Positions 47,488-49,668 of a stretch of DNA of 64,000 bases are shown one piece after another. Under the pieces are notes generated by a model. That model had not been told where the DNA came from and did no database searches. It worked only from the letters and a program-made list of their open reading frames with translations. Both the position numbers and the translations under genes were made by a program. Location: NCBI GenBank assembly GCA_003856375.1, contig CP034120.1:620001-684000 (forward strand), read 5' to 3'. Numbering within the stretch: the first letter of the stretch is position 1; every line of letters begins with the position of its first letter. The DNA comes from Glaciecola amylolytica. GTDB taxonomy: Bacteria > Bacteroidota > Bacteroidia > Flavobacteriales_D > Crocinitomicaceae.

Positions 47488-47555
47488 GTGTTACGAATGT
47501 AATTAAAAACGTTGTTTTGGCTGTGAAATTGTGGTAAGAATAAATTCTTGGTTCT

Positions 47556-48978: not shown

Positions 48979-48993
48979 TCCTTTGGATTGCTA

Positions 48994-49609
48994 TTCCTTC
49001 GCGTTGCGCTTGTATCCAGGCTACGCTCAGTCTTCGACAGCTTGCGCTTTTCCTTCACGTTACGCTTGTGTCCAAGCTACGCTCAGTCTTCGACAGCTTG
49101 CGCTTTTCCTTCGCGTTACGCTTGTATCCAGGCTACGCTCAGTCTTCGACAGCTTACGCTTTTCCTTCGCGTTACGCTTGTATCCAAGCTACGCTCAGTC
49201 TTCGACAGCTTACGCTTTTCCTTCGCGTTACGCTTGTATCCAAGCTACGCTCAGTCTTCGACAGCTTACGCTTTTCCTTCGCGTTACGCTTGTATCCAAG
49301 CTACGCTCAGTCTTCGACAGCTTACGCTTTTCCTTCGCGTTACGCTTGTGTCCAAGCTACGCTCAGTCTTCGACAGCTTACGCTTTTCCTTCGCGTTACG
49401 CTTGTGTCCAAGCTACGCTCAGTCTTCGACAGCTTACGCTTTTCCTTCGCGTTACGCTTGTGTCCAAGCTACGCTCAGTCTTCGACAGCTTACGCTTTTC
49501 CTTCGCGTTACGCTTGTGTCCAAGCTACGCTCAGTCTTCGACAGCTTACGCTTTTCCTTCGCGTTACGCTTGTGTCCAAGCTACGCTCAGTCTTCGACAG
49601 CTTGCGCTG
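48994..49609. repeat. 56-bp tandem array, 11 copies
   Basis: Eleven head-to-tail copies of a 56-bp unit (opening TTCCTTCGCGTTACGCTTGT) with few substitutions: GTATCC or GTGTCC, AGGCT or AAGCT, and GCTTGCGC or GCTTACGC. The end copies share the GCTTGCGC variant, and inner copies share GCTTACGC. All three forward frames are open throughout, giving spurious 189-214 codon frames; since 56 is not a multiple of 3 each frame cycles through the same three peptides. It is not a CRISPR array, as there are no unique spacers. It is GC-richer than its surroundings. Confidence 0.95.
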
Positions 49610-49668
49610 TCTCTTATTTAGCTTCATTCTGAATTAACCCATTCGCACTCAGAAAAATCGATTTTGAT

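Follow-up and report, generated by a model that had tools for sequence, protein, structure and literature searches.

The tandem repeat of eleven 56-bp units located upstream of a fumarate hydratase (fumarase) gene in Glaciecola amylolytica (contig CP034120.1) probably arose by head-to-tail multiplication of a single member of a family of dispersed, non-coding, REP/RPE-like palindromic elements of the genus Fluviicola. The family is genus-wide, dispersed, palindromic, mostly intergenic and variable between related species, and is thus REP-like in the broad sense. Its members carry two hairpins, one on either side of an AGTCTTC linker, which are maintained by compensatory change. What appeared to be a minisatellite thereby becomes part of a family found across the genus, under strong structural constraint and unusually placed at −7 boxes and stop codons. 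Unless indicated otherwise, coordinates refer to the window, that is, the whole analyzed stretch of 64,000 nucleotides.

The array and its immediate surroundings

TRF places the array at 48990−49608 (period 56, 11.1 copies, 97% matches, score 1147), matches to covariance model R1 span 48994−49613, and the 11 AGTCTTC cores are spaced by exactly 56 bp throughout. Pairs of units differ at 0−5 of 56 positions, six columns being variable, and the GC content of the array is 52% compared to 41% for the window. None of the forward frames contains a stop codon, while the reverse frames contain 16, 13 and 13. The description of an eleven-copy 56-bp array with three open frames given in the initial annotation is thus confirmed by TRF, core spacing and the stop-free forward frames. 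The gradient of variants that it noticed is likewise correct: GCTTGCGC occurs in copies 1, 2 and 11 and GCTTACGC in copies 3−10, while GTATCC is found in copies 1 and 3−6 and GTGTCC in copies 2 and 7−11. As the 56-bp units abut, with no spacers between them, CRISPR could be ruled out. The features of the region, all on the forward strand, are the following:

48088−48978, +, ORF without Pfam match, its stop codon 11 nt before the array
48990−49613, +, 11 two-hairpin elements arranged head-to-tail as a tandem array with a unit of 56 bp (TRF, core spacing, R1)
48983−49621, 48988−49632 and 49068−49637, +, three mechanical ORFs that overlap one another and lie across the array (212, 214 and 189 aa), judged to be non-genes
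49557−49616, +, terminal (11th) copy (sequence; R1 74 bits, E = 2.4e−20; helix covariation in homologs)
49557−49560, +, CTTC of the 11th copy (sequence)
49561−49586, +, first hairpin (hp1) of the 11th copy, GCGT-TAC-GCTTG-TGTC-CAAGC-T-ACGC (sequence)
49587−49595, +, linker of the 11th copy, TC-AGTCTTC (sequence)
49596−49611, +, second hairpin (hp2) of the 11th copy, GACAGC-TTGC-GCTGTC, intact (sequence)
49614−49616, +, TTA that follows the tail (TC) of the 11th copy (sequence)
49614−49636, +, junction flank TTATTTAGCTTCATTCTGAATTA, resembling four relatives without the array
49669−49676, +, probable −7 promoter box of fumarase, TAATTTTG, fitting TAnnTTTG and lying outside the array (recognized by eye)
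49762−51369, +, gene for fumarate hydratase, following the array (PF05681, 4.4e−76; PF05683, 3.4e−80)

The mechanical ORFs over the array gave no Pfam match above the cut-off. They bear out the earlier warning that the open frames may be called as false proteins, and the array, which opens three such overlapping frames, is a caution for gene finders. TAATTTTG is probably the −7 box of fumarase judging by its sequence, and comparable boxes lie upstream of fumarase in several relatives. A reverse-strand partial copy suspected by eye at about 49690−49750 was confirmed by neither covariance model at E ≤ 1.

Two hairpins maintained by compensatory change

The elements share the plan CTTC-hp1-TC-AGTCTTC-hp2, ending in a T-rich tail, and fall into three subtypes. 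In subtype A, sister to the focal one, hp1 has a conserved 19-nt loop (TTYCGCACTRACGTTTGTY) on a stem that varies. Subtype B, which includes the focal array, has a bulged hp1 of the form CTTC-GCGT-TAC-GCTTG-TGTC-CAAGC-T-ACGC, and the minor subtype C (10 loci) has CGTCTTC as its linker. Units of the same array resemble one another; between species they differ. Several CGTCTTC-linker elements (L203, L219, L228, L243, L244, L249, L250 and L259) were seen by eye to lie inside larger inverted repeats, which would give branched structures between genes.

The table of subtypes A and C comprises 68 loci, and covariation was assessed on 57 distinct units from 64 of them (48 of subtype A and 9 of subtype C; L202, L213, L247 and L258 were excluded for gaps, Ns or offset). 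In hp1 of these units, 87 cells were changed on both sides versus 25.4 ± 3.8 after shuffling, with all seven pairs contributing, and 82% of positions were paired compared to 27−61% when the arms were slid; the two outermost of the seven pairs are formed in only about half of the units. The hp2 stem of subtype A (AAAAGC/GCTTTT) is nearly invariant and, since it hardly varies, says little about pairing. Eight elements of subtype B gave 93% pairing and 26 both-side changes versus 7.3 ± 2.1 after shuffling, for a structure drawn from those same eight sequences. A larger set of 68 distinct matches gave 190 versus 46.4 ± 5.3; having been fitted to the model, it is biased towards that structure.

The six variable columns of the focal array comprise two positions in predicted hairpin loops, one bulge position and one pair of hp1 that changes from T-A to T-G; the others are a mismatch in copy 2 and a position in the flank before the element. 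A protein-binding or structural role had initially been attributed to AAGCT...AGCTT arms around CAGTCTTCGAC. The structural role holds in a wide sense, but not these arms as a conserved pairing: the letters are present, yet in eight homologous elements the arms are 47% paired, which is the level of shuffled sequences. A perfect 6-bp hp2 is found in the last copy, whereas in the predicted fold internal copies retain only three of its pairs, as would be expected if the tandem joint cuts through one arm of hp2.

Folding energies are by themselves a weak indicator: the predicted z-score is −1.42 for the focal unit as plus-strand RNA, −2.43 for its reverse complement, −0.70 for a subtype-A unit and −1.99 for the whole array. 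No conserved GTAG or GTGG was found at the foot of the hairpins on either strand of eight aligned elements; the reverse complement of the focal unit has a single GTAG, which its homologs lack. Terminal inverted repeats, which together with a target-site duplication mark MITEs, were not seen in the unit.

Distribution of the family

The initial annotation proposed looking for the unit elsewhere in the genome, and this search turned up both a second array and dispersed copies. In the genome of the same organism (4.61 Mb, one contig), DNA search revealed the second array, made of 55-bp units, at about 553.2−553.4 kb. The core CTCAGTCTTCRAAAGC, allowing up to two mismatches, occurs at 58 places, in arrays and as single copies, versus 3 for the reversed control. 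Of 20 core places that were read, R1 recognizes 17 at E ≤ 1, whereas L156, L158 and L160 have no R1 match at this threshold and resemble chance occurrences. With 150 of 580−589 candidates scored, R1 gave at least 42 matches at E ≤ 0.01 and at least 52 at E ≤ 1; these counts include the 11 focal units. The dispersed homologous elements rule out a purely local minisatellite.

In the genus, R1 finds matches at E ≤ 0.01 in 13 of 14 genomes, F. taffensis included, with at least 3 to at least 62 matches per genome (150 candidates scored in each). The subtype-A pattern is also present in 13 of 14 genomes, again with counts that are lower bounds, but in the poorest genomes it does no better than its control, which equals the matches in G006 and G009 and exceeds them in G010. 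The figure of 13 genomes therefore relies on R1. Of 80 genomes of the family, 14 have matches to the subtype-A model R2. F. taffensis accounts for 53 of these and the genome carrying the focal array for 31; outside the genus the matches are mostly single and weak. Across the order, R1 with stricter filters detects 11 of 150 genomes, eight from this genus and three from the same family. Plasmid and phage records yielded no copies at E = 1e−5 in blastn mode. A search of 24 loci, the focal array (L001) among them, against Rfam 15 returned only a tRNA above the gathering threshold. A whalefall-1 hit below it (24 of 37 bits, E = 0.04) overlaps the subtype-C element in L259.

Placement relative to promoters, stop codons and reading frames

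The consensus of the flavobacterial −7 element is given as TAnnTTTG at −12 to −5 in the part of the source used here (PMC9723704). In subtype A, TAnnTTTR starts 17−21 nt past the linker in 48 of 58 loci, where 0.56% would be expected by chance, and at no other position of the first 60 nt. The loci are partly non-independent, as 22 of those with a called protein fall into seven orthologous groups. All 11 subtype-A loci of the genome carrying the focal array have the box at this distance, whereas none of the 10 loci of subtype C does, and the latter were kept out of the promoter count. Given this distance, hp2 would span the interval from the −33 region to the −7 box.

In view of these observations, the family could be a selected cis-regulatory element, with the focal array serving fumarase as a decoy or as an upstream, enhancer-like array, a reading that we regard as less likely. 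In its detailed form for the sister subtype, AGTCTTC would lie at about −33, hp2 would fill the spacer between −33 and −7, and hp1 would provide a site for a further regulator, so that tandem copies would tune the dosage of binding sites. Beyond the −7 box, it draws on the conservation of the 19-nt hp1 loop despite the varying stem, on the retention of elements at orthologous promoters (see below) and on the orientation of the nearest upstream ORF, which is on the same strand in five and on the opposite strand in six of the 11 subtype-A loci in the genome with the focal array; the last also means that subtype A is not supported as a general terminator of the upstream gene. Against it, the proteins downstream of ten of these loci that were scanned belong to unrelated families (pyrophosphatase, pseudouridine synthase, methyltransferase, enoyl-CoA hydratase, kynureninase, M17 and M50 peptidases, GAF, inositol-phosphatase family and YchF), and the focal subtype lacks the promoter arrangement, the array ending about 55 bp from the probable −7 box of fumarase. 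Cis-regulation accounts well for subtype A and poorly for subtype B.

For subtype B, genomic context was examined for 49 elements, taking one strong match per locus out of 73 matches (repeated matches, L281, a twin of L270, and the weak L317 were omitted) and mechanical ORFs of at least 80 aa. None of the 49 ends within 30 nt of the start of a same-strand ORF, and 17 terminate where an ORF on the opposite strand ends, at or within 30 nt of its 3′ end, eight of them exactly at the stop codon. The latter placement would be compatible with hairpins that act in RNA as 3′-end, terminator or stability structures, like REP/BIME after stop codons. In keeping with such a role, the gene-sense strand of the unit is predicted to fold better than the other (z-scores above), and the focal array begins 11 nt past a stop codon. 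However, the remaining 32 of 49 elements are not at such sites, no U-tract was seen by eye after the hairpins in the gene-sense direction, relative to its upstream gene, the focal array has the reverse of the usual orientation, and eleven copies exceed what a terminator needs. We consider this explanation rather unlikely.

Mechanical ORFs overlap 10 of the 49 elements, the focal array, L268 and L289 not being counted as coding. In seven ORFs (L262, L312, L267, L278, L318, L321 and L334) the copy is in frame; all seven are read on the opposite strand in a single common frame and encode approximately EEASLPKTEASSGKDEKPKE. The frame of L318 is only 126 aa long, and two of the host ORFs look orthologous. 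Two of the coding copies lie in the same genome as the focal array (genome coordinates):

3295254−3295370, coding copy L262, a tandem of 2 × 57 bp (a multiple of three)
1681352, coding copy L312

These copies, together with the stop-free forward frames, are what could be said for the array being a protein-coding repeat in one of those frames. Yet the coding copies use the other strand. Moreover, the one tandem inside an ORF in this genome has a period of 57, whereas tandems outside ORFs have periods of 55, 56, 58 (four arrays), 59, 60 and 61 bp, of which only 60 is a multiple of three, and the variable columns of the array are mainly loops, bulge and wobble. With no Pfam match above the cut-off and a period of 56, which is not a multiple of three, a coding function of the focal array is highly improbable and was rejected.

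Turnover at orthologous sites

Comparison of two orthologous sites showed that species differ in the presence of the element and that the number of tandem copies varies. Only one of 13 genomes of the genus has the array in the 700 bp that precede fumarase. All 12 relatives lack it; there, G002 and G012 contain a single isolated NGTCTTC heptamer each, and G006 contains one in reverse orientation. Along with the near-identity of the units, the presence of the array in one genome of 13 supports the recent expansion or active conversion proposed in the initial annotation. In four relatives (G008, G001, G013 and G007), homology resumes at 49609−49614, within 6 bp of the right end of the array (71−77% over 80−83 bp). 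This junction homology is short and weak (best E = 1.6e−9, weakest 4.3e−4) and is not seen there in 8 of 12 relatives; in G005 homology resumes at 49650, and in other relatives only at the start of the gene or not at all.

To the left of the array, homology to most relatives stops near 47532. In the relatives compared, no match to the segment 47533−49608 was thus found at the equivalent place, between the histidine kinase and fumarase genes. The whole segment differs from the relatives, so at the left edge there is no empty site to pair. The segment comprises two ORFs (47655−48080 and 48088−48978) and the array as its right edge. For the second ORF, tblastn finds no match in 17 fumarase loci (L033−L049), and the neighboring kinase is present in only three of them. 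Two copies of a 14-bp tandem repeat lie within the histidine kinase ORF (47176−47205). Other palindromic repeats, of the CCTCCCCCTT...AAGGGGGAGG and AATTGACAATTG types, were seen by eye in the space upstream of fumarase in several relatives (L033, L034, L035, L036 and L046), and this space looks like a repeat hot spot.

The second site is upstream of ppa (PF00719), for which 12 of 14 loci could be compared (G003, not aligned, and G005, a fragment, were excluded). Five of the 12 genomes have the element and seven do not, and the latter count against the cis-regulatory reading. The genome carrying the focal array has eight cores there and the relatives have 3, 3, 2 and 2 (one partly masked). The −7 box is TAnnTTTG in 10 of the 12 genomes and TATATTCG in two. 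In addition, an M50-family peptidase gene, which we take to be rseP-like, has 1−3 copies of the element in five genomes. Persistence of some elements at orthologous promoters, in five genomes each for the M50 peptidase and ppa, suggests selection rather than passive spread and weighs against the origin preferred below, and the differing copy number at one promoter offers a natural series for studying how hairpin repeats may tune expression.

Possible origin of the array and candidate mobilizing enzymes

Our preferred explanation, expansion of one member of the dispersed family, would involve the following steps. A single element may have come to adjoin TTATTTA upstream of the fumarase promoter in this lineage, at the right edge of the lineage-specific segment. 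It would then have multiplied by replication slippage or unequal recombination (or conversion), aided by the hairpins, and internal copies would have lost the outer half of the right hairpin at the tandem joint, leaving the full 6-bp form only in the last copy. The family itself may have spread via single-stranded hairpin DNA inserting alongside TTA, which reads TAA on the complementary strand, in which case surviving copies would gather at −7 boxes and stop codons. In subtype B, 18 of 49 elements have TTA as the triplet behind the tail, where 1.6% is expected per position; however, TTC is commoner (20 of 49), which speaks against such insertion, as do the seven empty ppa promoters, four of which read CTA or GTA and three TTA. 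Set against single-stranded elements of the IS200/IS605 type, which have a subterminal hairpin and insert 3′ of a fixed short target, the observations are mixed: a hairpin adjoins TTA at the fumarase junction, but the triplet behind subtype-B elements is divided between TTA and TTC. If the array is active at all, it would most likely serve as a structured spacer between the end of the upstream gene and the fumarase promoter, acting in DNA or in read-through transcripts.

A more specific proposal is that the elements dock at the borders of transcription units, as single-stranded hairpin DNA moved by an HUH/Y1-type enzyme to positions beside TTA (TAA on the other strand). Because TTA/TAA occurs both in the −7 box (CAAAnnTAA) and in stop codons, one rule would explain the copies that abut promoters, those that abut stops and those in frame, and, if true, tandem copy number at promoters would be an evolvable setting of expression. 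We view the proposal with considerable doubt. Matches to Y1 transposases (PF01797) are found in 11 of 14 genomes of the genus (23 in all), but among the eight loci examined the element lies near only one, L166 of F. taffensis, with two subtype-A copies within 300 bp; at L164, R2 gives a weak match (E = 0.07). Neither R1 nor R2 matches anything within the loci (L170, L260) of the single PF01797 match in the genome with the focal array, so a Y1 partner there is not supported, and none of the Y1 loci examined pointed to a mobilizing enzyme. A GC-rich palindrome with GGGGATTAATCCCC at its core lies within the Y1 transposase-like gene region of that genome (G000:C1:3183071; L170, L260), inside the reading frame or close to it. 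The Y1 gene of L166 (F. taffensis 2659879) is flanked on either side by copies of a hairpin, CTGCGCTGGATCTCCTGATCCTG, that has no relation to the focal element.

Comparison with known repeat families

Searches with motif strings, and of full texts on Fluviicola and Bacteroidetes repeats among the best-ranked papers, covering mainly open-access journals and main texts, showed no published description of the element. The family thus appears to be undescribed, although such a search is not proof of absence, and it belongs within known REP-like kinds of repeat. It offers a case in which to study the spread of REP-like repeats that lack an obvious transposase.

Rickettsia palindromic elements are palindromic repeats kept in frame inside unrelated protein genes and found also between genes. 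Going by that description, the present family is alike in having copies both in frame inside ORFs and in intergenic regions. To our knowledge, Rickettsia palindromic elements are of different sequence and phylum, and tandem arrays and promoter docking lie outside their description.

The BrickBuilt MITE of Porphyromonas gingivalis, in the part of its description considered here, has a 23-nt unit, a leader, a tail and terminal inverted repeats, with promoter elements reported (PMC4596501). It resembles the array studied here in being an intergenic tandem minisatellite of Bacteroidota tied to a dispersed element, and its copy number varies between strains. In our case, the 55−61-bp unit is the dispersed element itself, which also occurs singly, and no terminal repeats were seen. 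Genes of TnpA-Y1 subclass 2.6 of Bacteroidetes, according to the portion of the account consulted, are flanked by non-GTAG, weaker hairpins copied around the genome (PMC6006769). The phylum is the same, and Y1 proteins of two relatives (L166 and L169) carry the NH[LIV]H, WQ and YIH[QN]NP motifs listed in that portion. On the other hand, the element lies near one of eight Y1 loci, and that gene is flanked by a different hairpin.

Also among the nearest kinds are REP/BIME sequences and GTAG- or CGTC-tagged palindromes, which the sections at hand describe as short, dispersed, largely extragenic, often downstream of coding regions and clustered; CGTC families are known in Bacteroidetes, lack a dedicated transposase and have stems of 8−9 bp with loops of 4−5 nt (PMC3733652). 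The Fluviicola element does not agree with either tag in detail: GTAG-REP copies flank a Y1 gene, whereas here none does so at the PF01797 gene of the same genome and one of eight loci has them overall, and in place of CGTC the focal subtype has AGTCTTC, with stems of 3−7 bp, of which some carry a bulge or a 19-nt loop. Like REP/BIME, it is a short dispersed palindrome that is clustered and has some copies inside genes. It is distinguished from REP and CGTC palindromes by two linked hairpins, a conserved AGTCTTC linker and a foot without conserved GTAG, and its placement at the −7 box is a feature of its own relative to the parts of the REP/CGTC descriptions compared (PMC3733652).
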